Assembly: GCA_003221195.1 (NCBI GenBank)
Contig: QHQO01000031.1
Coordinates: forward strand, 1 to 40,697
Source: Verrucomicrobiota bacterium
GTDB lineage: Bacteria; Verrucomicrobiota; Verrucomicrobiia; Chthoniobacterales; UBA10450
DNA length: 40,697 bases
Direction: 5' to 3'
The notes below the pieces were generated by a model, which was given only the letters and a program-made list of their open reading frames with translations, had not been told where the DNA came from and searched no databases. Numbering within the stretch: the first letter of the stretch is position 1; each line of letters opens with the position of its first letter. Position numbers and translations under genes: made by a program. Below are positions 3,669 to 21,273 of the stretch, piece after piece.

Positions 3669-3714
3669 CGGACAGGTTATCAGGTCTTCCGCCAAATGAG
3701 CCGAGGAGTTGTTC

Positions 3715-6237: not shown

Positions 6238-6257
6238 CCTAAGAATCGAGACCTAAC

Positions 6258-7121
6258 ATGTCCAACTACCGAAAAAAATTTGTCGTCAACCCGGGCTCCA
6301 AGATCCGGCTAAAACACTTCGACCCCGACTATCATGGCAAACATGAATCACACAAATCGGCTTTGCCGGAGATTCAGGAGAACCTGAAGAAGATGGATGA
6401 ACTTCAATACCGGATGTATGCGGAGAACAAGCATTCGCTTCTCATTGTGTTGCAGGGGTTGGACGCAGCTGGCAAGGACGGCGTAGTCCGCCACGTCTTG
6501 ACTGGCCTGAATCCATCGGGCTGCGTTTCTACTAACTTCAAGGAACCGACGAAGGTGGAGGTAGCGCACGATTTTCTCTGGCGTGTGCATCCGCATGTGC
6601 CGGCTAAGGGGTCAATCGCAATTTTCAATCGCTCCCACTACGAAGATGTGCTGGTAGTAAGAGTTCACGGCCTGGCGCCGGAAAAGGTGTGGTCAAAACG
6701 TTACGACCAAATAAACGATTTTGAACGGCTGATTGTCACTGAAAACAACACAACGATTCTCAAATTTTTCCTGCACATTTCAAAAGACGAACAGCTTTCC
6801 CGGTTCAAGAAGCGATTGGATGACCCGGAGCGTCAGTGGAAAATCAGCGACTCCGACTATAAGGAACGCGAATATTGGGATGATTACATCAAGACTTTCG
6901 AGGACGTGCTTACTAAAACGAGCACCGAGCAGGCGCCTTGGTTTATCATTCCCTCGAATCATAAGTGGTTTCGGGATTTGGCTATCTCACAGATCATTGT
7001 CCGACAGATGGACGACATGAACATGCAGCTGCCCAAATCGACTGTGAACCTGGCTGAAATTCGTCGTGAATACCATCAGGCGAAGGATGGCGAGAACGCG
7101 CATCGTCGCAAGAAGCGGTAG
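6258..7121 (+). CDS. ppk2: Polyphosphate kinase 2, class III-like
   Basis: Transfers phosphate from polyphosphate to nucleotides. 287 residues from ATG 6258. Walker A GLDAAGKDG (67-75), the aspartate loop and lid-type segment FNRSHYEDVLVVRVHGL (123-139), and DPERQWKISDSDYKEREYW are typical of PPK2. The 'GLDAAGKDG ... FNRSHYEDVL' form matches what I recall of class III enzymes, which can phosphorylate both AMP and ADP; the class is inferred. Normal single-domain length. It sits between the proton ATPase (20 bases upstream) and an MFS gene (2 bases downstream), so polyphosphate-derived ATP might feed the pump when respiration is low; that link is inference. Confidence 0.9.
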   Translation: MSNYRKKFVVNPGSKIRLKHFDPDYHGKHESHKSALPEIQENLKKMDELQYRMYAENKHSLLIVLQGLDAAGKDGVVRHVLTGLNPSGCVSTNFKEPTKVEVAHDFLWRVHPHVPAKGSIAIFNRSHYEDVLVVRVHGLAPEKVWSKRYDQINDFERLIVTENNTTILKFFLHISKDEQLSRFKKRLDDPERQWKISDSDYKEREYWDDYIKTFEDVLTKTSTEQAPWFIIPSNHKWFRDLAISQIIVRQMDDMNMQLPKSTVNLAEIRREYHQAKDGENAHRRKKR

Positions 7122-7123
7122 CA

Positions 7124-8529
7124 TTGGCTGAAATCACACCATCGCAACGTCTGACAGTACTGTTAGATGAGTCGCCGCTAAGGCCGATTCAGCGATGGCT
7201 GTGGCTGCTGTCGACCGGAGGCACGTTACTTGATGGTTTCGTAATTTTTGTTCTTGGCGTGGCGATGCCACTGATCGTCGCTGAGTTTCATCTCACGCCC
7301 GAGGTAGTGGGTCTCATCGGCGCAAGTCTGGTGTTTGGTGCTGTCTTTGGGGCCGGACTCGGCGGGCCGATGGCAGATCATCTTGGCCGAAAGAAGTTGA
7401 TGCTTGCCGACATGATAATCATCGCTGTCGGCGCCGCGACCAGCGCGCTGGCCAATGGATTTCCAATGCTCTTTATCGGCCAACTTCTCGTTGGGGTGGG
7501 AGTCGGCATCGATTTCCCCGCGAGTAGCAGTTACGTTTCGGAAGTGCTGCCGAAACGCAGTCGCGCGCGGACGATGGTCGCAACAATTGCCTGCCAATCA
7601 GTCGGTATGTTGCTTGCCGCCGTGATTGCGCTGTTGCTGCTAAAAATTGTGCACAGCGCTCAGACTTGGCGGCTTTTTTTGGCGACCGAAGCCGTTATTG
7701 CGCTTCTTTTTTCTTGCTGCGTCTTTCGGAACCGGACAGTCCGCACTGGTTGATGACTCGAGGCAGATTCGCCGAGGCAGCGCCGGCCTTCCTTCGGATC
7801 ATGCCCGACCAGCGCGAAGCAGTGTTACAAATTACGAGCAATGCCGCAGATCCAAAAGTTGCAAATTCGGTCTCGCCTTCGAAAGCACCCGGAATAGCGA
7901 TTCTTTTCTCTCGCGCTTATCGAGCTCGTACGGTGCTCGTCGCGGTTCCCTGGTTCTTGATGGATATCGCGACCTACGGCGTAGGACTTTTCACTCCAAT
8001 TATTCTCGGCGCGATTGATGTCTCCACTAAGAGGGTCGGCGTCATCGCCCATGACTTCGCAGACGCGAGACGAAGCGCTGCAATCGATCTATTTCTGCTG
8101 TTCGGTTTTCTTGTAGGGATTTGGGCAGTCCCGCGATTCGGACGCATCCGAATGCAGGTCACCGGTTTCGCGGGTATGACTTTTGGCATGTTGCTGCTTA
8201 TGATCGCCGTTCGGCTGTCGAACTCTTCCGCAGGCGCAGGACACATTCCGCTGGTTTTCGCCGGGTCCATTCTGTTCAACTTGTCAATGAACACCGGACC
8301 TAATTCTACCACGTTCACGCTTGCGCCCATCTTGTTTCCGACGCAATTGCGTGCCACGGCCAGCGGTTTCGCTGCTGGCGTCGCCAAAATTGGAGCGACT
8401 CTTGGCGTGTTTGTTCTGCCAATCTTAAAAGGTAAATGTGGCGTCCCCGCAGTCCTCGGAATGATGGCGGCAGTCAGTGTTTTGGGTCTGGTCGTTACCC
8501 TGGTCTTTGGGCACGAGGATACGGAATAG
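7124..8529 (+). pseudogene. MFS sugar/metabolite transporter, frameshifted at a T6 run
   Basis: Two overlapping frames together make one 12-helix major facilitator protein. The first part (TTG 7124 to stop 7753) holds about 200 residues with the MFS loop signature GGPMADHLGRKKLM and GIDFPASSSYVSEVLPKRSRAR. The rest runs in the -1 frame to 8529 (LLRLSEPDSPHWLMTRGRF onward, then six more helices). The switch occurs at TTTTTT 7707-7712: one extra T would restore WRLFLATEAVIALLF-FLLRLSEPDSPHW as one chain. Both halves look otherwise intact, which favours a very recent mutation or a sequencing/assembly error over an old pseudogene. Substrate unknown. Start TTG lies 2 bases after the ppk2 stop with only a weak upstream purine tract. 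Confidence 0.75.
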
Positions 8530-8815
8530 CCGTGGTGCTGCTCATTCCAACCGGCTCTCCGAGTCAGATTTTGATCGGTAGTGCAAAACGCGATAGCCAA
8601 GCAGCCAATATGAAGATGTCGAGCTCAGCGAAGTCCATTGCCGGACTTGGTTCGTTCATTGCATCAGGTTTGCTCTTTGAGGCCGGAGCTGGAGATTGCG
8701 AAGTTCACTGTGACAGTCGAAAAGGCAGCGGACGGAAATTTTCGCTTCGCCGGGGAGGCCGGTCGGCGGAAGGATCGAATCGCGTGATGAGGAAAGAACT
8801 GTGCGAGTCGAGCAG

Positions 8816-9949
8816 CTATCTAATCCCAGACGCCAGCCGATAGTCGCCACGCCTGTTAGTCTCATGGTTCTCTTCGCGGTCGCCCGGGTTTTGCAACGCC
8901 GTGCCGTGGCATCTTAGTCGACCTGCAGCGACTGTCGCGAGACCCCGCGCGACGAAATCCTCAACCGCATCATGGATGGCATGATCCATCGAAGAGGTAG
9001 GAATGTAACCGAGCTCCTTTTCTGCTTTTGCATTGCTTGAAAAATGTGGACGGCGCGACATTTGCACGGATTCGCGTGTCACAAACGGAGTCCGGTTCGG
9101 CGAAAGCTTGGCGGCAGTTTCGCTGGCGCAAGCGGTGAGAAAGCTGAGCCAATGAGGCGCATAAAAACGTGGCGTGTGGTGGCGCGCGTAGGGTTCGACA
9201 AGTTTCAGAAAATCGCACAACCACAGGTTGATTCCGCCTAACAAGTAACGCTCACCGGACTTGGCCCGTGCCATTGCCAGAAGATGACCAAGTGCGCAAT
9301 CGCGTACATCGACGAAGTTGAGTCCGGTGCGGGCAAGCAACGGGATCCGTCCGTTTAAAAATGCGACCACGATCATTCCCGTTGGCGTCGGTCTCACGTC
9401 GTGTGGGCCGATCGGCGCGGTGGGCAGCGTGGTCACGATGGGCCAGCCTGCGTCCGCCCTTTGTTTTACTTCGAGATAACTCCGAAACTTGGAGCGTTTG
9501 TAGGGTCCTTTGAATTGAGAGGGCGAAGCGAGACGCTCTTCAGTTGCCAGCCGGTCCAACGTTCCTGGTTCGAGGATTCCGATCGTGCTCGTGCACACGA
9601 TTTTCTCAACCCCGCTGCGCTTCGCTGCTTCCAAAAGATTGATTGTTCCCTGCACGTTGTTAGCAAAAATCTCACGCGGATCGCGCGCCCAGAACCGATA
9701 GTCGCCAGCAACGTGAAAAACGTATCGGCAATCTTTCATGGCCGCTTCAATCGAATCCCGACGGAGAAGATCGCCCTCCACCCAATCGATCGCATTACGG
9801 CGGCGCCCTTTTATCGATCTCGTGAACGCCCGAACATGAGCGCCCGTCTGAACCAACAACGACGCCACATGGCTGCCGATAAAACCGGACGCGCCTGTGA
9901 CGAAGACTTGTTGTCCGCCGAAAAAATGATGGAGATCATGCGGGATCAT
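8816..9949 (-). CDS. SDR-family NAD(P)-dependent epimerase/reductase, HpnA-like
   Basis: 377 residues from ATG 9949, whose ATGA overlaps the stop of the upstream cytidylyltransferase gene. Extended short-chain dehydrogenase: cofactor motif VFVTGASGFIGSHVA (15-29), catalytic YKRSK (Tyr150/Lys154), and the HpnA-type phrases VFHVAGDYRFWARDPREIF, APIGPHDVRPTPTGMIV and GERYLLGGINL. HpnA is the 'hopanoid-associated sugar epimerase', a name from gene context rather than a proven reaction. No squalene-hopene cyclase is in the window, so hopanoids are not implied here. A tail of about 35 residues after the usual end (after VEDFVARG) looks unconserved. As last gene of the lipid operon it may modify a sugar or a lipid intermediate. 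Confidence 0.88.
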   Translation of the reverse strand: MIPHDLHHFFGGQQVFVTGASGFIGSHVASLLVQTGAHVRAFTRSIKGRRRNAIDWVEGDLLRRDSIEAAMKDCRYVFHVAGDYRFWARDPREIFANNVQGTINLLEAAKRSGVEKIVCTSTIGILEPGTLDRLATEERLASPSQFKGPYKRSKFRSYLEVKQRADAGWPIVTTLPTAPIGPHDVRPTPTGMIVVAFLNGRIPLLARTGLNFVDVRDCALGHLLAMARAKSGERYLLGGINLWLCDFLKLVEPYARHHTPRFYAPHWLSFLTACASETAAKLSPNRTPFVTRESVQMSRRPHFSSNAKAEKELGYIPTSSMDHAIHDAVEDFVARGLATVAAGRLRCHGTALQNPGDREENHETNRRGDYRLASGIR

Positions 9950-10686
9950 GCGGAGCGAACGATCATTGGAACCAATTGGTGTCGAGCACGGATGACGTCC
10001 GCCGGAAAATCGATCTCGATCCACCGCAGTCCGGTCACGTCTTCGTATCCGAATCGTCCGGCAAGCACTAGCGTCCTTAAGACATCATCGTAGGAATCCG
10101 CGCAACTGGAGCCACGGCTTCGCGCCTCTGTCTCCTTTATCAGGAGCGGAAAATCAGTCGGAGCGATCTTGAAGAAGCCGATTGATTCGCCCACGAAATC
10201 GGCCTCACCTCTCCAGTGCTTGCGAAAGTCGATCGGTCGCCCATTTTTTACCGGCACGAGCATGGGATCGTCGTCATTGGTGGAAAATTCACGATCCAGC
10301 AGTAACGCGGTGCCGTGCACTGATTCGGTCAGACGGTCGAGCATCCCGGTCGGATAAAACACATCGGCGTCCATCAACAGAAGAGGCTCGGAACTCTCTT
10401 CGATTTCTGGAAGCGAGACTTTCAGGCTAAGCAAACTACCCTCGTGAAAGCGCGGATTCACAATCTCGCGTAACGCAACGTCATGCCGGGCGCAAATGTC
10501 GGGAAGCACTTCTGCAACCTGCTCGCGAAGGTGGCCGGTCACCAGCACGATTTCACGCACGCCGGCCTCGCGCAGTCGCAACGCGTGCCACTCCAGTAGC
10601 GTTTTGCCTCCGAATTCGAGAAGGATTTTCGGCGAGTCCGATTGCAATCGAGTTCCGCGTCCCGCCGCGTAGATAATGGCTTTCAT
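9946..10686 (-). CDS. Nucleotidyltransferase (cytidylyltransferase, LicC/IPCT-like)
   Basis: 246 residues from ATG 10686, which overlaps the upstream stop by ATGA; an apparent longer frame only extends into the neighbouring gene. MobA/LicC-type Rossmann fold with YAAGRGTRL (6-14), Lys20 of the SPK motif, MDADVFYP (105-112) for metal binding, GESIGFFKI and WIEIDFPADV near the end. This pattern recalls CTP:phosphocholine and CTP:inositol-1-phosphate cytidylyltransferases. In the operon with a CDP-alcohol phosphatidyltransferase it would supply the CDP-activated head group. The acceptor (inositol phosphate, choline phosphate, AEP or other) cannot be read from sequence. A second cytidylyltransferase is fused to PEP mutase in the opposite operon. 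Confidence 0.85.
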   Translation of the reverse strand: MKAIIYAAGRGTRLQSDSPKILLEFGGKTLLEWHALRLREAGVREIVLVTGHLREQVAEVLPDICARHDVALREIVNPRFHEGSLLSLKVSLPEIEESSEPLLLMDADVFYPTGMLDRLTESVHGTALLLDREFSTNDDDPMLVPVKNGRPIDFRKHWRGEADFVGESIGFFKIAPTDFPLLIKETEARSRGSSCADSYDDVLRTLVLAGRFGYEDVTGLRWIEIDFPADVIRARHQLVPMIVRSA

Positions 10687-11702
10687 GCCGGCGCCTCGAC
10701 TTCTCGCGCGACGCGCTGCGCGAAACCGCGGAGCGCCGGTTCCTCGGCATAGAGAAGCGCGCCACCGATCAGTGCGAACGTCAGATCGCGCGCACGGCGG
10801 ATGATGGCGTAGGGAACTGCAAGCGCGGGCGGGAAACCGAAAAGGTAAGAGAGGAAAATAATACCACTTTCCTGCACTCCGAGCGCGGCGGGGGCAAAAA
10901 CCCCGAGTGCCTTTGCTACGCCGATGAATGCCTCGAAGGCCACTGCTTGACTCCAATCCAACGGCATCCCAAGCAAGCGCGAGACGAGCAAAATTTCCAA
11001 TGAATCGGCGATCCACCCGAGCAGATAAAATGTCACACTGGAAAGAAAGCGCCGCCGATCGTTGCGATAGAAATCGAAAATTCGCCGATCGAGTTGGCGC
11101 AAACTTTCAGCTCGCGACGTAAGCGCGCGAATGCGCAACCGCAATCGCCCGGTCAACGCCAGGAGTGTGCTGAACATTCCTCGATGCTGGAGCCAGAAGA
11201 GCATCGCGATGAGGGCGGTTGCCGCGCCGCTAATTGCGAACATACCGGCGCGGGCGGGCGAATTGGCCGGCAGAATGGAAGAGCCGGCCACGGCTCCAAG
11301 CGCGATATAAATCACTTCAGCCAGAACTTGCGCTGTCTTTCCGATAACCACGCTTGATGCCCCCTCGACAACCGGGAGGCCGCGTTTATGGAGGAAATAG
11401 ACTTTCACGGCTTCGCCCCCGAGATAAGCGGAAGGGACAACGTTATTGAGCGATTCCCCAGCCCACCGAATGCGGAATAGCGTTCCGAAGCTGATCGCCT
11501 TCGAAAGCGTGCGGCCAAAACACAAACGCCACCCAACAGTATCGAGAAGATAAACAAGAGCGTAAGGCAGAAGAATAAGAGGAGCCGACCAGCCGAGCGT
11601 GGTGAAGGCGCGCGAGATCGTATTCACGCCGGTTCGGTGTACGAACCACGCAAACAGCACCAGGCCTGCCCCGGCGATAATCAGTCTTAACGTCAATTTC
11701 AC
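10683..11702 (-). CDS. Flippase-like integral membrane protein (LPG synthase TM region / HpnL type)
   Basis: 339 residues from GTG 11702, chosen because GTGA overlaps the stop of the upstream gene; an ATG/other start at 11756 would overlap that gene by 57 bases. About eight hydrophobic spans. Family phrases: WRLCFGRTLSKAISFGTLFRI, ESLNNVVPSAYLGGEAVKVYFL, AFEAFIGVAKALGVFAPAALGVQE and a Gly/Pro-rich C-terminal half, typical of the UPF0104/AglD/HpnL group. Members are thought to move or help synthesise lipid-linked molecules across the membrane. Placed between a CDP-alcohol phosphatidyltransferase and a cytidylyltransferase, a role in moving the new lipid is the natural guess. Confidence 0.83.
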   Translation of the reverse strand: MKLTLRLIIAGAGLVLFAWFVHRTGVNTISRAFTTLGWSAPLILLPYALVYLLDTVGWRLCFGRTLSKAISFGTLFRIRWAGESLNNVVPSAYLGGEAVKVYFLHKRGLPVVEGASSVVIGKTAQVLAEVIYIALGAVAGSSILPANSPARAGMFAISGAATALIAMLFWLQHRGMFSTLLALTGRLRLRIRALTSRAESLRQLDRRIFDFYRNDRRRFLSSVTFYLLGWIADSLEILLVSRLLGMPLDWSQAVAFEAFIGVAKALGVFAPAALGVQESGIIFLSYLFGFPPALAVPYAIIRRARDLTFALIGGALLYAEEPALRGFAQRVAREVEAPA

Positions 11703-12766
11703 GCGGATTTCTCCAAGATCGATGGCGCACGTCCGGCGTCTTGCCACTGCGAGCAAAGCGCAATGATCCAGAAGAGATGAACACCTATTCCGGCCATCCA
11801 GAGGAATAGATCGAGCTGGCCGGCTATGGCGAACAACAACACCAGCAACGAGAAGTCGCGGTTGGTCGTAGCATCAATCAATTTTTCGAGACTTGAGGCT
11901 TTGCCACGGCTCTTGCGTTGCATGACGCGCACGATCACGGCGAAGGAGGCGATTGTCCCGAGCACCGCGCTGATTCCGAGCGCGAGCGCGGGCGATGCCG
12001 GATCGCTCCGGGCCAAGCCGAAGCCGATCCCAGCGAAAACAGCGACGTGCACCAACTGGTCACCCACAAGGTCGAGCCATTTACCCAAGCGCGATTCTTT
12101 ATAAAGTACCCGCGCAAGATCACCATCCACGCAATCGATGATGGCGGAAAGCTGCAGTAGAAGCGCACCTGAGATGAAATATCCACTGGCGAAAGACCAC
12201 CCCGACAAAATGCCAACAAGCATTGATACGATCGAAACTTGGTTGGGCGAAAATGGAGCACGGATAAGGATTTTCGACAGGTACCGGCCGAGTGGACGAT
12301 TAAGAAATCGATCGACGATTCCATCCGCACTGCTACCGAGCGATGCCCAAAGGCGGCGCTCGGCCTCGCGTACCGAAGTGGAGTCAGTAACTGGCGTGGC
12401 GACTTTTCCTGCGCTCACCGGTCCGGCGCCACCCGCCGTCATCGCAACCGGCAGACGAACATAATCAGTCGAAAACAGCTGCCCGCCACTTTTTATTACT
12501 TGCTGAAGATCCGCGGTCTCGACCAACACACCTCCGTTAATGAGGAGGGCGGGTTCATCGAGTTCTGGTATTGCTGAAGCAAGGGTTATATTGATTCCGA
12601 GGGCGCGGGCACGGGGAGTCGCCGGACCCGTTTCTGTAATGAGGCAGATGGGAGCGCAACCCGCGCGATGGACGGTTACGATTAAGCGATCGAGCAGGCT
12701 CAATCCCGCGATCTGTACGTCATTCGTTTCAGCGACACAGTCGAGGATGGCGGTGACTTTGCTCAC
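11699..12766 (-). CDS. CDP-alcohol phosphatidyltransferase with N-terminal degenerate nucleotidyltransferase-like domain
   Basis: 355 residues from GTG 12766, overlapping the stop of a small upstream ORF by GTGA. The C-terminal half carries the complete CDP-alcohol phosphotransferase signature: Asp211, Asp214-Gly215, Ala218-Arg219, Gly228, Asp232, Asp236 (D-x2-DG-x2-AR-x8-G-x3-D-x3-D), within about six membrane spans. The enzyme joins a CDP-alcohol (or CMP-phosphonate) to a hydroxyl acceptor. Residues 1-150 resemble a shrunken NTP-transferase (LSLLDRLIVTVHRAG, PALLINGGVLVE) without the GxGTR and DAD motifs, so it is probably inactive; the same architecture is found in archaeal IPCT/DIPPS proteins, where that domain is active. 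Here activity may have moved to the separate gene at 9946-10686. Confidence 0.88.
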   Translation of the reverse strand: MSKVTAILDCVAETNDVQIAGLSLLDRLIVTVHRAGCAPICLITETGPATPRARALGINITLASAIPELDEPALLINGGVLVETADLQQVIKSGGQLFSTDYVRLPVAMTAGGAGPVSAGKVATPVTDSTSVREAERRLWASLGSSADGIVDRFLNRPLGRYLSKILIRAPFSPNQVSIVSMLVGILSGWSFASGYFISGALLLQLSAIIDCVDGDLARVLYKESRLGKWLDLVGDQLVHVAVFAGIGFGLARSDPASPALALGISAVLGTIASFAVIVRVMQRKSRGKASSLEKLIDATTNRDFSLLVLLFAIAGQLDLFLWMAGIGVHLFWIIALCSQWQDAGRAPSILEKSA

Positions 12767-12912
12767 CGCACTTTGCCTTTGCCGACCGCATCTTTCATTT
12801 CGGAGACCGACGGCGCTAGCGCGTTAAGTTCTGGTAGGCGGCGCTGCCGCCCTTTCTTGTGTCCGGGAAGATAATTGCGATGCACGTGCGGCTTGAGTGT
12901 TTCCACTTCCAT
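12763..12912 (-). CDS. Small basic hypothetical protein (49 aa) heading the lipid operon
   Basis: ATG 12912 to TGA 12763 encodes MEVETLKPHVHRNYLPGHKK followed by a basic GRQRRLPELNALAPS stretch and ending KGKVR. No family recognised, no membrane segment, no catalytic motif. Support: its TGA overlaps the GTG start of the phosphatidyltransferase as GTGA, exactly like the next three junctions in this operon, and third-position base use is GC-rich like the neighbours. The frame is open further upstream but only to a non-standard start. No strong ribosome-binding site. It could be a small regulatory or enzyme-tethering protein, or a leader ORF for translational coupling. Confidence 0.5.
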   Translation of the reverse strand: MEVETLKPHVHRNYLPGHKKGRQRRLPELNALAPSVSEMKDAVGKGKVR

Positions 12913-13174
12913 CTCGTTATCATTTTCAGAGGCATGAAATCGTCCACGCTTACGAATTCATCGTGCTCGGAATACTTTCTTCGCAGGTTCGCTTCATCTG
13001 TTTCTCAATGAATCAGAAATCAATTCGTTGATTGTTGCGGTGGCAGTTGTGAGCATGGAACGAAGAAGGACTGAAAGCACGCCTTTGCGAAGAACAGAAA
13101 ACAAGCGTGGAAACTAATTACTGGTATTAAGTAGCCAGAAAGTCAATTGTTCTCATCTTAGACTGCTGTGCATC
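12913..13174. promoter_or_regulatory. Divergent intergenic region between lipid and phosphonate operons
   Basis: These 262 bases must carry promoters for both operons, which suggests joint control. I see no convincing -35/-10 pair. The one structured element is AATCAA-TTCG-TTGATT at 13018-13033, a 6-bp inverted repeat with a TTCG centre that could be an operator or a small hairpin. Confidence 0.4.
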
Positions 13175-14812
13175 ATGACATCCTCCACCAACGGCGAAAT
13201 CAGTAAGACGCAGCAATTCAAACGGATCCTGCAATCCAAACGGCTTGAGTTTTTGATGGAGGCTCACAATGGATTGAGCGCCCGTATCGTCGAGGAAACC
13301 GGGTTTCACGGAATCTGGGCCAGCGGGCTTTCGATCTCCGCTGCCCTCGGCGTACGCGACAACAATGAAGCGAGCTGGACGCAAGTACTGGAAGTCCTCG
13401 AATTCATGAGCGACGCCACTCACATTCCAATCCTGCTTGATGGTGATACTGGCTACGGAAATTTCAACAACATGCGACGGCTTGTGAAAAAACTGGAGCA
13501 ACGCGGGGTGGCAGCCGTCTGCATTGAAGATAAACTTTTCCCCAAGACCAATTCATTCATCACGAGCGAACGTCAGCCGCTCGCCACAATCGATGAATTC
13601 ACTGGTAAGATTAAAGCAGTCAAGGATGCTCAAAGGGATTCAGACTTTTGTCTGGTGGCACGACTCGAGGGATTTATAGCGGGTTGGGGGATCGATGAAA
13701 TGCTCCTCCGCGCCGAAGCCTATCATCTCGCGGGAGCGGACGCGCTTCTGGTTCACAGCAAAAAAGTGACGCCAGATGAGGTGCTCACGTTCGCGAAAGC
13801 GTGGGCCAATAAGTGTCCGCTCGTGATTGCTCCCACCACTTATTACAGTACGCCGGTCGAAGTGTTTGAGCAGGTGGGCATCAGAATCGTGATCTGGGCA
13901 AATCAAAATGTCCGTAGCGCAATCGCGGCGATGCAAGAAACGACCCGCCGTATTTTCACTGAGCGCACGGTTCAAAACGTCGAAGATGGAATTGCTCCGG
14001 TGAAAGAAGTTTTCCGGCTTCAGAATGCGGAAGAATTGTTGCTTGCCGAGGAGCGTTATTTGCCAAAAAGGCGGGCCTGGACGCGCGCGATTATTCTCGC
14101 TGCGAGTCGCGGCAACGAACTGGGAGAGGTCACGACCGGCGTCCCCAAAGCAATGGTTCCCGTTTCCGGCATACCTCTGCTGCACAAGCTCGTCTCCCAG
14201 TTTCGCGCGGCCGGGGTTCGTGCAATTACGGTAGTGCGGGGTTATGCGGCCGAGAAGGTGCACGCCCCCAACGTGGAATTCGTAGAGAACGAGGATTTCG
14301 AAGGCACTGGAGAATTGCTTTCACTGCACAAGGCCCGCGATCGGATCGATGGCGATGTGATCATTTCCTTTGGAGACATCCTTTTTCGCCAGCATATTCT
14401 GAACAACCTGCTCGCGGAAGAACACGATATCGTTATCGCCGTGGATGCGATGTGGGAACGGCGACGCAAGCGCGGGGCGAATGGATACATCGACTATATC
14501 ACTGCGACGCGGCCCTACTCGTTGCGTTATGAGGAAGAGGATGCGTTCCTGGCGAAGATAGGACCCGACCTTGCGGTCGAGAAAATCCATGGCGAATGGA
14601 TCGGCCTGATCAAAACGACAGCGCGTGGATCCGCGGGAGTATGCGGCGCGTTAGATGTCTTATCCAAGCGCCCGGACTTTGGCCGATTGCGCTTCGACGA
14701 TCTTTTCAATCATCTCGTAGGCGGGGGACAACGCATACAGGTTCTTTACATTACTGGACAATGGCTGGATGTGGACGACATCGACGATCTCGCGAGAGCC
14801 CAAGCGTTCTAA
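13175..14812 (+). CDS. pepM: Bifunctional phosphoenolpyruvate mutase - phosphonate cytidylyltransferase (PepM-PntC type)
   Basis: 545 residues from ATG 13175. Residues about 12-290 are PEP mutase, which makes phosphonopyruvate, the committed step to C-P bonds. The diagnostic [10 protein letters not shown] (118-127) is present, with Trp48, Ser50, DGDTGYGN (Asp89, Asp91), Arg163 and His194 at active-site positions; EDKx5NS separates mutases from isocitrate-lyase-like hydrolases. Residues about 303-545 are a nucleotidyltransferase ([43 protein letters not shown]), like PntC domains that make CMP-AEP from AEP and CTP. The GxGTR motif is degenerate (ASRGNEL) and DAD is GDI. First gene of an operon with the decarboxylase and aminotransferase. 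No strong ribosome-binding site seen. Confidence 0.92.
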
Positions 14813-14839
14813 TTCCTAGCTAGCCCGACGCCTCGAAAA

Positions 14840-15994
14840 ATGATCAGCGCTTGCTCGTTCGTCGATCAACTGCGTGGTCTTGGTTATTCACAATATGCCG
14901 GGGTGCCTTGTTCCTTTTTGACCTCTCTGATCAACTACGTGAGCGGTGATCCCGCGTTGGATTACATCGGCGCCACGAGCGAAGGCGAGGCAATTGGGAT
15001 TACCTTCGGAGCGTTTCTGGCCGGGCGGAAAACGGTGACCATGTGCCAAAACTCCGGCCTCGGTAACATGGTGAACCCTCTCACCTCGCTCAACTACCCG
15101 TTTCGTGTCCCGACGCTGCTGGTCGTTACATGGCGCGGCCAACCCGAAGTAAAGGACGAACCCCAACATGAACAGATGGGAAGGATTTTGCACCGTTTGC
15201 TCGAGACCCTGGAAATACCGTGTCTGCCTTTTCCTCGCAGCGAAGCGGATATTGCCCAAACAATGGCGCAGGCCGAGGCGAGCATGGAGCAACGAAAGCG
15301 GCCGTTTGCTTTGGTTATGCAAAAAGGCTCTGTCGCCCCGCACGCTGTGCCGGGTCGCCTCGAGTCCGAGTCGATCAAGACCGATTTGCAAGAAAACCTC
15401 TCAGCAAAGGAGAATGAGCGACTCACGCGGACAGCTGCAATCGAACTTATTCTCGATGCTCTCGCCGGGGACGAAGCGATCATTGCTTCGACTGGCAAGA
15501 CCGGCCGCGAACTCTTCACAATCTCGGATCGCGCCAACCACCTCTACGTCGTTGGCGGAATGGGCACTGCGTCGGCGATTGGTTTCGGTGTGGCACACGC
15601 GCTCCCTAGGCAACCAGTCGTCGTCATCGATGGAGATGGCGCTGCTTTGATGAAGCTCGGCGTGTTCGCCACGATTGGCTGGTATCAACCGCCGAATCTT
15701 CTTCACATCGTTCTCGATAACGAAGCGCACGATTCAACGGGAGGCCAGCAAACGGCATCTGGGATTGTCCGGTTCGCGGCTATCGCCGCAGCGGCTAATT
15801 ACCATTCAGCTTTTGCGGAGGATCGCCCGAACGAGATTCGCGAGGCCGTCCGTCTGCTACGTCACCGAACCGGACCTTCCTTGTTGCATGTGAAGATACA
15901 ACCGAGCTCGCCTGGGAAGCTTGGTCGTCCAACCGTGCAACCGCACGAAGTAAAAGAACGCTTTTCACAATTCCTTAGCTCGACGGCGAAATGA
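14840..15994 (+). CDS. Phosphonopyruvate decarboxylase
   Basis: 384 residues from ATG 14840, 27 bases after pepM. Thiamine-diphosphate enzyme that pulls the unfavourable PEP mutase reaction forward by forming phosphonoacetaldehyde. Visible: N-terminal pyrimidine-binding domain with VPCSFLTSLINY and SEGEAIG (Glu48, cofactor activation), a segment MCQNSGLGNMVNPLTSL, and the C-terminal pyrophosphate domain with the GDG...N motif (VVVIDGDGA, Gly265-Gly267; Asn294 in VLDNEAHDSTGGQQT). Length and phrases match Ppd rather than sulfopyruvate decarboxylase, and the flanking PEP mutase and AEP transaminase settle it. Confidence 0.94.
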   Translation: MISACSFVDQLRGLGYSQYAGVPCSFLTSLINYVSGDPALDYIGATSEGEAIGITFGAFLAGRKTVTMCQNSGLGNMVNPLTSLNYPFRVPTLLVVTWRGQPEVKDEPQHEQMGRILHRLLETLEIPCLPFPRSEADIAQTMAQAEASMEQRKRPFALVMQKGSVAPHAVPGRLESESIKTDLQENLSAKENERLTRTAAIELILDALAGDEAIIASTGKTGRELFTISDRANHLYVVGGMGTASAIGFGVAHALPRQPVVVIDGDGAALMKLGVFATIGWYQPPNLLHIVLDNEAHDSTGGQQTASGIVRFAAIAAAANYHSAFAEDRPNEIREAVRLLRHRTGPSLLHVKIQPSSPGKLGRPTVQPHEVKERFSQFLSSTAK

Positions 15995-17070
15995 AAGATC
16001 CGCTTCTCTTCACCCCGGGACCGCTCACCACGAGCGCGACCGTGAAAGCCGCGATGCAGCGTGACGTTGGTTCGCGCGACGCCGACTTCATCGAACTGGT
16101 CGGAGGCATTCGCTCGGAATTGCTTCGCATCGCGGGTGTCTCGCGCGAACAGGGTTACGAAGCCGTGCTCATGCAGGGAAGTGGGACATTCGGGCTCGAG
16201 TCGGTCATTTCATCAGTAATACCGTCGGAAGGGAGATTCGTGGTGCTGGCAAACGGTGTTTATGGCGAGCGCATGGCTACGATCGCGGAGCGATTGGGAA
16301 TTTCGACCAGGCTGGCCCGCTGGCCGGAGAATGAATCGCCGCAGCCCGCGGCAGTGCAACGTCTCATCGAAGCAGAACCGGCCACCACTCATGTGGCAAT
16401 GGTGCATTGCGAAACCACCACAGGCATTTTGAACCCGATCGACGAGATTGCGCGAATAGTAAAAGCCGGTGATCGCGAATTCATTGTGGACGCGATGAGC
16501 AGTTTCGGCGGTGTGCCCCTCGATTTGAGCAAACTGGAAATCGATTATCTAATTTCCTCCCCTAACAAATGCCTCGAAGGCATTCCCGGCTTCTCCTTCG
16601 TGCTGGTGCGACGCGAAGCGCTCGAAGCAACCAAAGGCCGTGCGCGCAGCGTCAGTCTCGATCTGCTCGCACAATGGGAAGGTCTTGAAGGGAATGGCCA
16701 ATTCCGCTTCACGCCGCCCACGCACGCGCTCCTCGCCTTTGCCAGAGCGCTGGAAGAACTCCGTGAAGAAGGTGGCGTCTCTGCTCGTGCCGCCCGCTAC
16801 CGCGCTAATCACGAGACATTGCGAGCGGGAATGCGCAGGCTCGGTTTCGCCGAGTACTTGCCCGCAGAGCGCCAGAGCAACATCATTACCGCGTTTCGGT
16901 ATCCGGACGATCCTAACTTCAAATTTGAAGAGTTCTATCATCGTCTCCGTGCGCGCGGTTTTGTCATCTATCCCGGCAAGTTGAACCAAGCCGACTGCTT
17001 CCGGATCGGAACGATCGGTCGAATCAACGAGAAAAACGTGGAGGACCTCGTCACCGCGATTGGCCACTGA
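15991..17070 (+). CDS. phnW: 2-aminoethylphosphonate-pyruvate aminotransferase
   Basis: 359 residues from ATG 15991, whose ATGA overlaps the decarboxylase stop. Fold type I PLP enzyme: LFTPGPLTTS at the start, GSGTFGLESVISS, Asp168 (FIVDAMSSFGG) and the PLP lysine Lys193 in SSPNKCLEGIPGF. It interconverts phosphonoacetaldehyde and 2-aminoethylphosphonate. PhnW usually serves degradation with phosphonatase PhnX; here no PhnX is present and PEP mutase precedes it, so it most likely works in the synthetic direction, yielding AEP for the cytidylyltransferase domain. Confidence 0.94.
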   Translation: MKDPLLFTPGPLTTSATVKAAMQRDVGSRDADFIELVGGIRSELLRIAGVSREQGYEAVLMQGSGTFGLESVISSVIPSEGRFVVLANGVYGERMATIAERLGISTRLARWPENESPQPAAVQRLIEAEPATTHVAMVHCETTTGILNPIDEIARIVKAGDREFIVDAMSSFGGVPLDLSKLEIDYLISSPNKCLEGIPGFSFVLVRREALEATKGRARSVSLDLLAQWEGLEGNGQFRFTPPTHALLAFARALEELREEGGVSARAARYRANHETLRAGMRRLGFAEYLPAERQSNIITAFRYPDDPNFKFEEFYHRLRARGFVIYPGKLNQADCFRIGTIGRINEKNVEDLVTAIGH

Positions 17071-17173
17071 GGCCCTCAGGTTCCACTCATTTTTTTTCCA
17101 CGCCGATAAAGCCCGGGATGATAACGTTCGAAAATTGGCGCAACTGACGCCAATGCTCGAATCGTTGTCGATC

Positions 17174-18292
17174 TTATGAGACGCTTAAACCTTCGTACGT
17201 TTCCGCGACGATATGATCGACGACGGCTTTCATGTCCTGAGTGCGTTCCCACACCATAAGTTGGCGATCCGCACCCGTACCTTCGCGCATGATCCGCTCG
17301 ATATGCGCCATCTCCTTTTGAGTGTCGAGCTCATTTACCTCGGTCGAGACAAACTCGAGCAATTCATTTAACAAACTGCGCGCCTCCACTTCCGTTTCCC
17401 TGCCGAAATCGATTAGTTTGCCGTCGATGCCGTAGCGCGAGGCGCGCCAGCGATTCTCATCCAATAACCGGCGGCGATAAACGCGGAAGCTAATGTTCTG
17501 GCGGAGCAACTTGTACAGTTTTGAGATCACCGCCTGAATCAATGCGGCTATCGCGAGCGTGTCGTCTACGCGCGATTGCGCATCGCACACGCGAACTTCG
17601 AGCGTCTCGAAAAATGGATGGAGTCGAATGTCCCACCAGATTTTTTTCGCGTTATCGACGCAGCCGGTTTTGACCAGGAGCTTGCAGTAATCTTCGTACT
17701 CGGAAAGACTTTCGAATGCGTCTGGAATCCCAGTGCGCGGAAAACGCTCGAACACTTTGAGTCGATAACCTTTCAGGCCGGTGTCCTGGCCGACCCAGAA
17801 CGGCGAGTTGGCCGAGAGCGCGTAAATGTGAGGGAGAAAATAGCGCGCTTGATTCATGACGTGAATCGCGCTTTGCCGATCCGGAATGCCGACGTGCACG
17901 TGCAAACCGAAGATGAGATTGGCGCGTGCGAGCTGCTGCATGTCCTTGACAATCTCCTGATAGCGCTCGCCTTGAGTAATAAGTTGATCGCGCCAGTGCG
18001 AAAACGGATGCGTGCCCACCGAGGCGATCTGCAGTCCGCTGCGACCTGCCAGTTCCGCGAGTCTGCTGCGCAGTTCGATCACGTGGGCACGCGCATCGAC
18101 AATCGACTGGCAAATTTCAGTGCCTAACTCAACGACCGATTGGTGCATCTCCGGCTTGATTTGCTCTTTCAGGGTAACTTTCCCGCCCTCGAGGATTTCC
18201 TGGATGTGCGACCGAAGCTCGCGTGTCTCCGGATCGATAATGGCGAATTCCTCTTCGATACCGAGGGTGAACGTGTGGTTTTTCTTCGCCAT
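17174..18292 (-). CDS. Carboxylate-amine ligase, YbdK/GCS2 family (glutamate-cysteine ligase-like)
   Basis: 372 residues from ATG 18292 (MAKKNHTFTLGIEEEF), the same length as E. coli YbdK; a TTG four codons earlier lies right behind a GAGGGAGA tract, so the start is not certain. Family marks: GIEEEFAIIDPETREL, the ATP/metal-binding glutamates there, HVHVGIPDRQSAI, and VRVCDAQSRVDDTLAIAALIQA. The family joins glutamate (or another acid) to an amine such as cysteine. The next gene upstream on the same strand is an ATP-grasp ligase and a glyoxalase I-like gene follows beyond it, which together suggest a glutathione-like or other small-peptide thiol; substrates are inferred only. Confidence 0.9.
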   Translation of the reverse strand: MAKKNHTFTLGIEEEFAIIDPETRELRSHIQEILEGGKVTLKEQIKPEMHQSVVELGTEICQSIVDARAHVIELRSRLAELAGRSGLQIASVGTHPFSHWRDQLITQGERYQEIVKDMQQLARANLIFGLHVHVGIPDRQSAIHVMNQARYFLPHIYALSANSPFWVGQDTGLKGYRLKVFERFPRTGIPDAFESLSEYEDYCKLLVKTGCVDNAKKIWWDIRLHPFFETLEVRVCDAQSRVDDTLAIAALIQAVISKLYKLLRQNISFRVYRRRLLDENRWRASRYGIDGKLIDFGRETEVEARSLLNELLEFVSTEVNELDTQKEMAHIERIMREGTGADRQLMVWERTQDMKAVVDHIVAETYEGLSVS

Positions 18293-18326
18293 GGCGGGGC
18301 GCAAATCTCCCTCAAAAACGCCCTAA

Positions 18327-18458
18327 TGTCATCCCGAGCAGAACGAGGGATCTCACATGACGTCGTGGAGCACACCAGTTCACGTGTGTGATCAACTCGC
18401 CTGTGTGATCAACTCGCCTGTGTGGGGTTCCTGGTCGCCTTCGCGACTCGGGATGACA
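18327..18458. repeat. Inverted-repeat element (MITE/REP-like), copy 1
   Basis: Begins TGTCATCCCGAG and ends CTCGGGATGACA: a perfect 12-bp terminal inverted repeat about 132 bases apart, between the YbdK-like gene and the ATP-grasp gene. The outer sequence (TGTCATCCCGAGCAGAACGAG) is the same type as in copy 2 at 20036-20141 and as short intergenic repeats I recall in several phyla. The centre holds a 17-bp tandem repeat. No ORF. Confidence 0.65.
18385..18424. repeat. 17-bp tandem direct repeat inside inverted-repeat copy 1
   Basis: TGTGTGATCAACTCGCC occurs at 18385-18401 and again at 18402-18418, and the first six bases a third time at 18419-18424. The unit contains the palindrome TGATCA. Probably slippage within the repeat element. 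Confidence 0.75.
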
Positions 18459-18478
18459 CGCGAACTTGTTTGTTGATC

Positions 18479-19444
18479 TTACGCCAGTTCGCCTAACGAA
18501 CTCTTTCTCACTGCCGCCTGCAGAAATTTGCCCCAGCTCAAATTATCACGCCCGGATTTGTGTTCGCGCGCTTTACGGATGGCCATTTCCGACACAGCTT
18601 CGACGACCCATTCGAAATTTGCCTGACCGACGTTGGCTGCTTCCGCATCCGGCGCGGGATTGCAAAAATCAATGGCGACCGGCACACCGTCGCGAATCGC
18701 AAACTCGACCGTGTTCAAGTCGTAACCGAGAAACTGATTCAGCGTCAGCACATCCCGCTCGACTCTTTGGAGAATATCTTTCGGTGCCTGCCATTCGGTT
18801 TGATACCGCAAATGGTAAGGATGCCGCGGCTCGTACGGCATTATCCGCACTTGCCGTTGATCAATTGAATAGCAGCGGAAATACATGTCGAACTTCACTT
18901 CCTCCTGCAACATCATCACCAATTGGCCAGTCTCGCTGTAGGCGCGATAAAATTCTTCCGGGTTATGCAAGCGATAGACGTTCTTCCAACCGCCCCCTGC
19001 GAACGGTTTGAAGAATGCGGGCCAGCCGACGTAATCGAAAATCGCTTCCCAATTCAATGGATACTGGAGATTACGAAACGATTTGTCGTTCGTGTCCGTC
19101 GGCGGCTGGTTCGATGGAAGCAATACCGTCCGCGGAACGGCGACGCCAATCTTGGTGGCGAGCGCGTTGTTGAAGAATTTTTCATCGGCGCTCCACCAGA
19201 AAGGATTATTTACGACCGCTGTTCCGGTGAGGGCTGCGTTCTTGAGCCACGCCCTATAGAACGGCACGTCCTGCGAGATACGATCGATCACCACGTCGTA
19301 GCCACATGGCTCGCCCTGGATCACCTTGTCGATCCTGACAAATTCGGCGACGATTTCTTTGCCGCCGGTTTTCTGATTCACCCGCTCGACAAACGCCGGC
19401 GGAAAGCTGTGTTCCTGGCCAAAAAGAATTCCAATTTTTTTCAT
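18479..19444 (-). CDS. ATP-grasp ligase-like protein
   Basis: 321 residues from ATG 19444 (MKKIGILFGQEHSFPPAFVE); the open frame continues upstream to 19579 but that part is made of low-complexity repeat (VIRVIRG) and is not coding. ATP-grasp features: FFKPFAGGGWKNVYRL (glycine-rich ATP lysine region, about 145-160), MMLQEEVKFDMYFRCY, and the metal-binding end TVEFAIRDGVPVAIDFCNPAPD with Glu and Asn. Such enzymes couple ATP to amide or peptide bond formation. It lies upstream of, and on the same strand as, the YbdK-like ligase, as GshB follows GshA in function; substrate unknown. Confidence 0.82.
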   Translation of the reverse strand: MKKIGILFGQEHSFPPAFVERVNQKTGGKEIVAEFVRIDKVIQGEPCGYDVVIDRISQDVPFYRAWLKNAALTGTAVVNNPFWWSADEKFFNNALATKIGVAVPRTVLLPSNQPPTDTNDKSFRNLQYPLNWEAIFDYVGWPAFFKPFAGGGWKNVYRLHNPEEFYRAYSETGQLVMMLQEEVKFDMYFRCYSIDQRQVRIMPYEPRHPYHLRYQTEWQAPKDILQRVERDVLTLNQFLGYDLNTVEFAIRDGVPVAIDFCNPAPDAEAANVGQANFEWVVEAVSEMAIRKAREHKSGRDNLSWGKFLQAAVRKSSLGELA

Positions 19445-19456
19445 ATGCAGACAACC

Positions 19457-19483
19457 GCGGATTACGCGGATCACACGGATGAG
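19457..19483. repeat. Three 9-bp near-repeats (GCGGATTAC type)
   Basis: GCGGATTAC, GCGGATCAC and ACGGATGAG follow each other just upstream of the ATP-grasp start codon. This periodic 'GCGGATTACGCGGAT' motif is a dispersed intergenic sequence type in several bacterial phyla, as I recall. It occupies the place of the 5' leader, so it may affect expression. Confidence 0.5.
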
Positions 19484-19644
19484 GTCTCGTTCGGAGCGTG
19501 CATTAAAATACAGTAACTCCTGGACTCTCATTAACACCGTGGCTTTAAGCCCGGTGCATTTCGCGTGGAGCGCAATCAAGCCGTTTTAACGGCTTTGTCC
19601 AGAGCGAGGGTTTGAATCCATGCGCCGGAACACTAAGATAAGCC

Positions 19645-20028
19645 ATGGTCAAGAAATTGTTGCACACGCGCTATCGCGTCCACGACTTAGAGAAAACGGT
19701 TTCTTTCTACAAGGATGTGCTGGGACTCAAGGAGCTTCGCCGTCACACTTCCGGTCGCGGATCGCAACTTGTGTTTTTGAAAGCACCCGAGAGTGACCAG
19801 GAGATTGAGATTTGTAAATTTGATGAGAGCGGGCCGGTAGTGGTCGGCCCCGATCTTACGCACCTCGCTTTTGAAGTGGACGATTTGGAAAAGTTCGCGA
19901 AACATGCGGCCGCAAAAGGCCATCCGCTATCGGACGGACCGCATTCAAGTGGCAACGGTAAAATCGCGTTCATCGACGCGCCGGAAGGCTACGAGATCGA
20001 ATTGATCGAACGCGGAAAGAAATCATAA
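19645..20028 (+). CDS. Glyoxalase I-like VOC-superfamily protein
   Basis: 127 residues from ATG 19645. Two beta-alpha-beta-beta-beta modules of the vicinal oxygen chelate fold. LLHTRYRVHDLEKTVSFYKDVLGL, LTHLAFEVDDLE and FIDAPEGYEIELIE match lactoylglutathione lyase. Metal ligands fit His7, a Glu in EIEI (about 53-55), His73 and Glu119. It would convert the hemithioacetal of methylglyoxal and a thiol. Divergent from the ATP-grasp/YbdK pair and so consistent with a thiol pathway. An inverted-repeat element starts 8 bases after its stop. Confidence 0.88.
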   Translation: MVKKLLHTRYRVHDLEKTVSFYKDVLGLKELRRHTSGRGSQLVFLKAPESDQEIEICKFDESGPVVVGPDLTHLAFEVDDLEKFAKHAAAKGHPLSDGPHSSGNGKIAFIDAPEGYEIELIERGKKS

Positions 20029-20035
20029 GTCGTAT

Positions 20036-20141
20036 TGTCATTCCGAGCGGAGCGAGGAACCTCAAAATCGAAGCAGCAGTCACACAAAGCACCGTGGGAC
20101 GCAAAAACTTTGAGAGGTCCTTCGCTTCGCTCAGGATGACA
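20036..20141. repeat. Inverted-repeat element (MITE/REP-like), copy 2
   Basis: TGTCATTCCGAGCGGAGCGA at 20036 is matched in reverse by TCGCTTCGCTCAGGATGACA ending at 20141; the arms pair over about 28 bases with a few mismatches. Same family as 18327-18458, about 1.7 kb away. It sits between the glyoxalase gene and the carboxypeptidase gene and could act as a bidirectional transcript-end hairpin. Confidence 0.7.
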
Positions 20142-20244
20142 GAAGGAATGCGCGCTCATCAGGAAGGCTTCGTCACAACGCGAGAGAGGAACTGGCTGCG
20201 ACAACGCTTGCGCGACTAAAGCTTTTATCGGTAATTTCCGACCC

Positions 20245-21273
20245 ATGAAATTGTCGCGCAATTGGCTCTGCTTCCTTTGCGTTGTCGTCCTGTCATCAGT
20301 TCCTAGCGTATGGAGCCAGGATGCCACTGACTCCGAGGCCGTACGCCCCAGCGGGGTCTCCGGGTCGGTCCGCAAGGCAAAGGCCGTTACTGCGAAAGCC
20401 GATGAGGATACTGATGCTGAATCTACTCCAACTCGCAAAGCAAAGACCTCGAAATCGACTCACGCCCGCTCGCACCGGACGCACGCAAAGGCGAAAGAAA
20501 CACCAGAAACAATCCCTGCGCCGACCGAGTACACTCCCGAGGGAATACCAAAGACCAGCGCAGCTTCAGTGATTGTCGTGGATGCGAATACCGGCAAAAT
20601 ACTGTACGAAAAAAATGCGGATCAGTTCAGGGCCCCGGCGAGCACGCAAAAATTACTTACGGCGCTCATTGTGGCGGAGACCGGTTTTCTTGATCGACAG
20701 GTCACAGTGCAACCAACAGATACAATGGCCGAACCGGTGAAGTTGAATATTAAGGCGGGCGACACTTATCAGCGAATCGATCTTCTGCGCGCGTTGCTGG
20801 TAAAAAGCCCTAACGACGTCGCACGATGTCTGGCCCGGGATAATGCCGGCAGTATCGAAGCGTTTGCGGGGGTCATGAACAGACGCGCCCAACAACTCGG
20901 AGCTGTGCATTCGCACTTTGTGAATCCAAATGGTCTGCCGGTTCCCGGACAGTATTCCACCGCGCGTGACCTGGCGCTCATAGCGCGCGTCGCCTATGCG
21001 AATCCGACAATCCGGTCGATCGTTTGTCTTCCGCAGCTTGTTTTTCGCTTCGCCAACGGTCGCACACGCGAGCTTGAGAATACGAACAAGCTGCTCAGAC
21101 GATTGCCTTACTGCAACGGGATGAAGACTGGTTATACCGATGCCGCAGGCAAATGTTTGATTGCCAGCGGCACGCGTCCCGGTAAGGACGTGATCGTCGT
21201 GGTGTTGGGCGACAGCTCGAGCCGCGTTTGGCGTGATGCATCCGCGCTACTCTCCTGGAGCCTCTGGATGTAA
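20245..21273 (+). CDS. D-alanyl-D-alanine carboxypeptidase (peptidase S11, PBP5-like)
   Basis: 342 residues from ATG 20245. A signal peptide (MKLSRNWLCFLCVVVLSSVP, cleavage near SVWS|Q24/25) is followed by a Lys/Ala/Thr/Glu-rich linker (about 30-100), then the penicillin-binding domain. All three active-site motifs are present: SxxK as Ser133-Thr-Gln-Lys136, SxN as Ser188-Pro-Asn190, and KTG at 294-296. It trims the terminal D-Ala of peptidoglycan stem peptides in the periplasm. No C-terminal membrane anchor helix is evident, and the usual C-terminal beta domain of PBP5 is absent, so this is a short form. Its end overlaps the convergent glycosyltransferase gene by 27 bases. Confidence 0.92.
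   Translation: MKLSRNWLCFLCVVVLSSVPSVWSQDATDSEAVRPSGVSGSVRKAKAVTAKADEDTDAESTPTRKAKTSKSTHARSHRTHAKAKETPETIPAPTEYTPEGIPKTSAASVIVVDANTGKILYEKNADQFRAPASTQKLLTALIVAETGFLDRQVTVQPTDTMAEPVKLNIKAGDTYQRIDLLRALLVKSPNDVARCLARDNAGSIEAFAGVMNRRAQQLGAVHSHFVNPNGLPVPGQYSTARDLALIARVAYANPTIRSIVCLPQLVFRFANGRTRELENTNKLLRRLPYCNGMKTGYTDAAGKCLIASGTRPGKDVIVVVLGDSSSRVWRDASALLSWSLWM

Follow-up and report, generated by a model that had tools for sequence, protein, structure and literature searches.

Predicted phosphonolipid gene cluster of a probably Udaeobacter-like Verrucomicrobiota bacterium with a pseudoenzyme-like nucleotidyltransferase domain fused to PEP mutase

Introduction

Clusters of lichen Nostoc that combine a CDP-alcohol phosphatidyltransferase (CAPT), a 2-oxoglutarate (2OG)-Fe(II) oxidase, the nucleotidyltransferase NTPT, pepM, ppd, a 2-aminoethylphosphonate (AEP) transaminase (AEPT) and hpnL are termed phosphonolipid genes in the part of PMC5987646 that deals with them. 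A Burkholderia cluster serves there as comparison, and the phosphonolipid assignment follows Yu et al. 2013 as cited in that paper. Here a locus of related content is described, consisting of seven genes in two divergent operons at positions 8816–17070 of a contig from a soil Verrucomicrobiota bacterium (QHQO01000031.1 of assembly GCA_003221195.1), of which positions 1 to 40,697 were analysed and are referred to as the window. The cluster probably makes a membrane lipid with a carbon–phosphorus (C–P) head group, a reading that has good support as a prediction from the genome.

The steps after AEP are termed enigmatic in the relevant sections of Rice et al. (PMC6697681), where the nucleotidyltransferase (NT) signature is given as GXG(T/S)RX4-8PK and the enzymes demonstrated to form CMP-AEP, the cytidine monophosphate (CMP) adduct of AEP, are Ari1348 and Tde1415, the latter being fused to AEPT and not to pepM. 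In Tde-PntC, Arg15 sits at the pyrophosphate and Lys25 at the α-phosphate of CTP, Glu104 and Glu196 lie near the amine of AEP, and alanine substitution at Arg15 (R15A), Lys25 (K25A) or Lys153 leaves less than 10% activity (PMC6697681). A 2019 survey observed a fused PF12804 domain on about one third of phosphoenolpyruvate (PEP) mutases and grouped it with phosphonate nucleotidyltransferases; no later paper on this fused domain was found in the literature search. PMC13215547 refers to PntC solely to compare its structure with that of a Mycoplasma protein.

From Bdellovibrio stolpii, a sphingophosphonolipid whose head group is 1-hydroxy-2-aminoethylphosphonate has been reported (Watanabe et al. 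2001, as cited in PMC8154272), and a passage of PMC7343977 reports a potential phosphonate synthesis cluster in a metagenome-assembled genome (MAG) of Candidatus Udaeobacter, treated among secondary metabolites. No described Verrucomicrobiota phosphonolipid was found in the literature on Verrucomicrobiota or Udaeobacter phosphonates, pepM and phosphonolipids, most subscription papers being outside the coverage. As a kind, the cluster of the original prediction is known from Nostoc and Burkholderia, and a potential Udaeobacter phosphonate cluster has been reported.

Results

The right operon (13175–17070, forward strand) encodes PEP mutase with a C-terminal PF12804 domain, followed by ppd and AEPT. 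The left operon (8816–12766, reverse strand) encodes the CAPT, an HpnL-like membrane protein, a stand-alone PF12804 protein (NTPT) and an HpnA-like short-chain dehydrogenase/reductase (SDR), with overlapping start and stop codons between the genes. All seven frames are open, and gene order, strands and the division into two divergent operons are as originally predicted, but the CAPT frame starts at 12766 and not at 12912.

The fused PF12804-like domain (14081–14809, forward strand; 49.3 bits, cut-off 27) has no GXG(T/S)R in its loop at 14099–14149 and reads IISFGDI where NTPT reads LLMDADV. For comparison, a set of 84 loci was assembled from the best 80 of 559 fusion relatives among the matches listed in genome contigs and from four plasmid loci; because the best 80 were taken, it leans to close relatives. 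In these loci and the window, none of the 85 fused domains keeps Arg15 (Tde-PntC numbering), and every one of them has Tyr or Phe at position 104. The 50 stand-alone NTs keep Arg15 in 48 cases, the remaining two being gapped fragments, and have Asp or Glu at position 104 in 47, His in one and gaps in two. The final acidic residue of the C-terminal W-x-E-x-D motif is replaced by Asn in 41 of the 85 fused domains, whereas it is Asp in 49 of the 50 stand-alone proteins. The residue set was then widened by loci from the phyla or class of a spirochaete, a Lysinibacillus, a Bacteroidales and a Rhodospirillales locus, with Actinomycetota outside the sample; domains below 110 amino acids were dropped and identical proteins counted once, so that all 106 fused proteins and 74 of the 79 stand-alone ones were aligned. 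Here, too, Arg15 is absent from every distinct fused sequence (0/106; 68 Glu, 5 Lys, 1 His, others), and position 104 is Tyr or Phe in 106/106 and acidic in none. Stand-alone rows carry Arg15 in 71 of 74 cases (71 of the 72 readable ones); two rows are gapped and one has Gly, a protein (L138) whose alignment to the fusion model begins at position 259 and which resembles a fused-type domain in an open reading frame (ORF) of its own.

A tree was built from 28 of the 85 fused domains, from 37 of the 50 stand-alone NTs, those of Nostoc near copies, L049 and short fragments having been dropped, and from three background sequences; L098 and L065 are long branches in it. All 28 fused domains group in a single clade of this tree (SH-aLRT 100). 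At the 37 loci with both domains, counted without near copies, mean pairwise identity is 40.0% for the fused domain versus 32.9% for the separate NT, the fused value being higher in 501 of 666 pairs. This better conservation argues that the fused domain is not decaying but retained for some role. Judged from the published residue data, it is probably not a working, or at least not an efficient, AEP cytidylyltransferase, which goes against the original assignment of CMP-AEP synthesis to this domain; the stand-alone NTPT has both the arginine and the acidic residue that it lacks. The fused domain is a strongly conserved, altered nucleotidyltransferase-like domain, perhaps with a structural, regulatory or other-ligand role.

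NTPT (9946–10686, reverse strand; PF12804 61.4 bits, cut-off 27) is the best candidate for an AEP cytidylyltransferase in the PntC role. Its start is most likely 10686, within a longer ORF (11016–9946). The signature is intact (GRGTRLQSDSPK, 10627–10662, reverse strand, fitting GXG(T/S)RX4-8PK), and with the strings AAGRGTRLQSDSPK and LLMDADV the protein has the signature, an acidic residue at position 104 and the metal-site Asp. Sequence matches in the PDB are LicC (1jyk) and Tde-PntC (6pd1). NTPT falls into a 22-row clade (SH-aLRT 99) that also holds the separate NTs from phosphonate clusters of Burkholderia, Mycetohabitans, Cupriavidus, Roseomonas, cyanobacteria, gammaproteobacteria and Rhodospirillales, and is separate from the other NT of its own genome on contig C17. 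Since neither the fused domain nor the N-terminal domain of the CAPT has the signature, NTPT appears to be the only intact one of the three nucleotidyltransferase-like domains in the cluster. The unaltered catalytic residues of NTPT, its gene neighbourhood and its place in the tree together suggest that it is the AEP-activating enzyme and probably makes CMP-AEP.

The CAPT (11699–12766, reverse strand; CDP-OH_P PF01066 45.1 bits, cut-off 22) combines its transferase domain with an N-terminal nucleotidyltransferase-like domain. Its catalytic motif (DCVDGDLARVLYKESRLGKWLDLVGD, 12059–12136, reverse strand) conforms to DxxDGxxARx8GxxxDxxxD, the motif of CDP-alcohol phosphatidyltransferases, and an alignment of 22 cluster CAPTs shows no variation at its D, G, A and R residues. 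The N-terminal extension of about 125 amino acids (12392–12766, reverse strand), alpha/beta according to the secondary structure of the model and without a nucleotidyltransferase signature, is present in all nine Verrucomicrobiota rows and has no counterpart in the remaining 13. The AlphaFold model (mean predicted local distance difference test score 90.7) finds its best PDB match in the CDP-alcohol phosphotransferase AF2299 (4o6n, 4o6m, 4q7c), followed by PIP synthase constructs, with IPCT-DIPPS (4mnd) at rank 7.

A tree was calculated from 60 CAPTs, each represented by a piece centred on the motif; 38 of them came from pepM loci and 22 did not. Rows without the full motif, near copies and duplicate loci had been removed, and several long branches were flagged. 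Verrucomicrobiota CAPTs form a clade of 10 (99/90), which in the best tree stands apart from Burkholderia/Nostoc-type and Bacteriovorax/Ignavibacteria-type CAPTs. An independent recruitment in Verrucomicrobiota, considered on this basis, did not hold up: a single clade of Verrucomicrobiota and Burkholderia/Nostoc-type CAPTs, although not recovered in the best tree, is not rejected by the approximately unbiased (AU) test (p-AU 0.421).

Linkage between the two halves was assessed by mapping the window families on the 84 loci with iterated profiles, the iteration having used those same ORFs. Within 7 kb of pepM, a CAPT is found at 40 loci, an NT not fused to pepM at 47, an HpnL-like gene at 20, an HpnA-like gene (at least 400 bits) at 10, ppd at 57 and AEPT at 42, many loci being cut by contig ends. 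CAPT and separate NT occur together at 34 of the 84 loci, which represent six phyla and plasmids (9 Cyanobacteriota, 9 Verrucomicrobiota, 7 Pseudomonadota, 4 plasmids, 2 Bdellovibrionota, 2 Ignavibacteriota, 1 Myxococcota). Because loci at contig ends cannot reveal their neighbours, the 39 loci that extend 7 kb or more in both directions were counted separately: 25 have a CAPT, 28 a separate NT (in L063 and L072 fused to AEPT), 22 both and eight neither. The 22 comprise eight cyanobacteria, five Verrucomicrobiota, four plasmids, two Bdellovibrionota, two Pseudomonadota and one Ignavibacteriota. Given seven CDP-OH_P matches in the 3.1 Mb of the window genome, our own arithmetic yields an expectation of about 0.035 CAPT per roughly 15.6 kb; co-localisation with pepM lies far above it, and an accidental neighbourhood of the two halves is thereby ruled out. 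The claim that both halves belong together is borne out by these counts.

Among Verrucomicrobiota there are 15 loci, 13 of them with at least 5.7 kb on the CAPT side, and 10 of the 13 keep the CAPT divergent beside pepM. All 10 (L047–L051, L056, L058–L061; L048 and L049 are contigs of one MAG) carry an HpnL-like gene. Free separation of the operons in relatives, named in the original prediction as a check, is thus mostly not seen. No close copy outside the window was returned by a CAPT search of 288 genomes of the phylum (best other genome G132, 32% identity), and no other genome with the fusion by a search of 117 genomes of the order (best other G013, 32% identity), both counts including the window genome; these samples evidently lack the closer relatives found among genome contigs. 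The cluster is therefore patchy. No relatives were found among the viral contigs searched. At 18 Nitrospirota loci, several of them short contigs, the pepM fusion is present and no ppd, AEPT, CAPT or separate NT was detected within 7 kb (L076–L081, L084, L089, L096, L097, L101, L103–L106, L118, L124, L126).

The AEP-forming half is complete, as had been predicted: all three enzymes exceed the curated NCBIfam cut-offs. The PEP mutase domain (13175–14059, forward strand; TIGR02320 378.4 bits, cut-off 319.55) has the EDKXXXXXNS motif at 13526–13555, and its model matches the PEP mutase structure 1s2v (64% identity). It is followed by phosphonopyruvate decarboxylase (Ppd/AepY; 14840–15994, forward strand; TIGR03297 408.7 bits, cut-off 312.5) and AEPT (15991–17070, forward strand; NF010006 493.5 bits, cut-off 296; TIGR02326 474.1, cut-off 400.8). 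According to family models and motifs, these enzymes would make AEP.

In the left operon, the flippase-like membrane protein (10683–11702, reverse strand) exceeds the cut-off of LPG_synthase_TM (PF03706 120.3 bits, cut-off 33.4) and stays below that of HpnL (TIGR03476 162.6, cut-off 195.65). The last gene encodes an extended SDR reductase/epimerase (8816–9949, reverse strand; PF01370 115.6 bits), which is below the cut-off of HpnA (TIGR03466 322.4, cut-off 367.65). On a Roseomonas marmotae plasmid (L044, 1–19611), AEP, NT, HpnL-like and CAPT genes directly adjoin the squalene-hopene cyclase gene (shc), hpnH and a hopanoid-associated phosphorylase. With these neighbours and an shc of the window genome on contig C5, a hopanoid is a candidate lipid acceptor; ceramide is another candidate, as alpha-oxoamine synthase-like matches below cut-off occur in the window genome, one of them beside the CAPTs on contig C17.

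Contig C17 (L214) of the window genome holds, at about 2357–20437, a second NT, three CAPT genes and the alpha-oxoamine synthase-like match (TIGR01825, below cut-off); these genes may form a head-group cluster of inositol or sphingolipid type. A similar NT and CAPT set is found in G013 and G166, of the same family as the window genome. In Candidatus Udaeobacter AEW3 (L048), the region downstream of the left operon (2323–8556) contains HpnA-like pieces that are repeated, a fragment of an NT and an additional CAPT, which groups with the Roseomonas one (92/74); this looks like a rearranged or duplicated block.

The window genome is a 3.1 Mb draft in 276 contigs (86.77% complete, 4.32% contaminated). 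Among the matches listed, the fused PEP mutase has its closest named relatives in a Verrucomicrobia MAG (92% identity) and in a Candidatus Udaeobacter MAG (88%). The locus of the Udaeobacter MAG, L048, also holds seven genes from the right flank of the window, at 54–93% identity. These identities and the common right flank suggest that the host is a Udaeobacter-like member of Verrucomicrobiota. Of the flanking genes tested, right ones occur only in L048 and left ones at no locus apart from one 25% ATPase match, the loci reaching at most 10 kb. At 7124–8529, an MFS transporter apparently spans two overlapping ORFs in different frames (7124–7753 and 7666–8529, only the first scanned) and is probably frameshifted or mis-assembled; a pair of adjoining sulfotransferase-family genes lies at 33598–35499.

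Discussion

With moderate confidence, the seven genes are regarded as one pathway, in which NTPT makes CMP-AEP and the CAPT transfers AEP to a lipid to give a C–P head group. NTPT, and not the pepM-fused domain, would activate AEP with CTP to CMP-AEP, and the membrane CAPT would move AEP from CMP onto a lipid hydroxyl; lipid transfer is suggested by the intact motif together with the repeated neighbourhood to pepM. The HpnL-like protein might carry either the product or an intermediate to the other side of the membrane, and acceptor or product might be modified by the HpnA-like SDR. Regarding the fused PF12804 class as a whole, we lean slightly towards a conserved pseudo-nucleotidyltransferase that serves assembly, channelling or binding of another metabolite, while separate NTs activate. 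Loss of the pyrophosphate-binding arginine and of the amine-side acidic residue, membership in one clade and conservation above that of the adjoining NT point in this direction.

Several observations weigh against these readings. The fused domains keep Lys25 in 105 of 106 and Asp106 in all 106 sequences, and with Lys (5/106) or His (1/106) at the Arg15 position in some of them an altered activity is possible. Stand-alone NTs are not uniform at position 104, with Asp or Glu in 65 of 74, His in seven and one each of Asn and Phe. Among the loci with 7 kb on both sides, the eight with neither CAPT nor separate NT (seven Nitrospirota, one Pseudomonadota) indicate that a partner NT need not lie near the fused domain, the Verrucomicrobiota loci L052, L054 and L098 have no CAPT half nearby, and the 22 positive loci are not independent, since eight are cyanobacteria, mostly Nostoc. 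Moreover, pepM-linked CAPTs are scattered over several parts of the tree, so that the acceptor may differ among groups, and NTPT and CAPT both resemble IPCT-DIPPS from inositol-phosphate synthesis.

Three other explanations were weighed. The pepM-fused domain could itself make CMP-AEP, NTPT being redundant or activating another substrate and the CAPT still making a phosphonolipid. The fusion is the commonest arrangement and was taken as functional linkage by Rice et al. in the corresponding passage of PMC6697681; the retained Lys25 and Asp106 and the seven Nitrospirota loci with room on both sides fit this proposal. However, Arg15, whose substitution in Tde-PntC (R15A) leaves below 10% activity (PMC6697681), is lost and position 104 is aromatic throughout the 106 sequences, the final acidic residue of the C-terminal motif is often Asn, and, of the two enzymes demonstrated there to form CMP-AEP, Ari1348 and Tde1415, the latter is joined to AEPT and not to pepM. 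We regard this proposal as unlikely.

A little less likely again is that AEP is finally attached to a glycan or another polymer of the cell surface, the CAPT acting on a polyprenyl or glycan-lipid carrier that the HpnL-like protein flips. According to the part of PMC6697681 on this subject, phosphonoglycans or phosphonolipids are the predicted products of most ppm clusters, the three clusters studied there carry LicD-like or glycosyltransferase genes, and a GT2 gene lies at 21247–22029 of the window. Yet this gene recurs in L048 only, of the 84 loci, and the seven genes include no LicD or glycosyltransferase, LicD not having been searched for in relatives. The least probable of the three is a left operon that makes an inositol-phosphate-type or other non-phosphonate polar lipid by the logic of IPCT plus DIPPS and merely adjoins the AEP genes. 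CAPT (76.3 bits) and NTPT (60 bits) both score best in NCBIfam with the IPCT-DIPPS model NF041135, far under its cut-off of 580, and the fold matches include AF2299, PIP synthase constructs and IPCT-DIPPS. On the other hand, the CAPT adjoins pepM in 10 of 13 Verrucomicrobiota loci with room as well as in other phyla, NTPT groups with phosphonate-cluster NTs, and the genome has another NT and CAPT set on C17.

On the residue evidence, the commonest fusion partner of PEP mutase is apparently not the activating enzyme, and PntC annotation in many genomes would then be redirected. That the fused domain is pseudoenzyme-like in every sampled sequence may surprise specialists. In addition, under the favoured one-pathway reading, the cluster supplies defined candidate enzymes for AEP activation and transfer.

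Comparison with known systems

Like Ari-PntC and Tde-PntC (PMC6697681), NTPT carries the GXG(T/S)RX4-8PK signature and the metal-site Asp, but it differs from Tde-PntC in having Asp at the position of Glu104, as LicC does; the pepM-fused domain differs from PntC in lacking signature and catalytic Arg. The CAPT shares with AF2299 and IPCT-DIPPS (4o6n, 4mnd) the combination of a CDP-alcohol transferase domain with an extra domain, and the Foldseek alignment with AF2299 extends over 376 columns for the 355-residue model. It is, however, only 18–19% identical to AF2299, its N-terminal domain has no NT signature, and its context is AEP synthesis. The family models that fit the SDR and the membrane protein best are those of HpnA and HpnL from hopanoid loci; unlike in such loci, both proteins score below the curated cut-offs and shc is on another contig.

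The Candidatus Udaeobacter MAG cluster of PMC7343977 belongs to the same bacterial group and has predicted phosphonate synthesis genes, but it is framed as secondary metabolism in a passage that names no lipid, CAPT or NT. In Bacteriovorax sp. and Bacteriovoracaceae (L119, L074) the gene order is NT-CAPT-PEPM-PPD-AEPT, which, taken with the lipid of B. stolpii, provides an indirect link between clusters of this kind and a known bacterial phosphonolipid.

With the phosphonolipid-type clusters of Nostoc and Burkholderia, as outlined in PMC5987646, the window shares a CAPT, a separate NTPT and an HpnL-type protein beside pepM, ppd and AEPT. Sampled Burkholderia, Mycetohabitans and Cupriavidus loci have CAPT, NTPT, pepM, ppd, AEPT and HpnL all in one run; sampled Nostoc loci have NT, pepM, ppd and AEPT, most with a CAPT, and gave no HpnL match with the profile used. 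The 2OG-Fe(II) oxygenase listed for the Nostoc cluster in the legend of Fig. 7 of PMC5987646 is absent from the seven genes at 8816–17070, the rest of the genome not having been searched for it, and is not a defining phosphonolipid feature as such. The window is distinguished from the Nostoc and Burkholderia clusters by its two divergent operons, the additional N-terminal domain of its CAPT and the added HpnA-like SDR.

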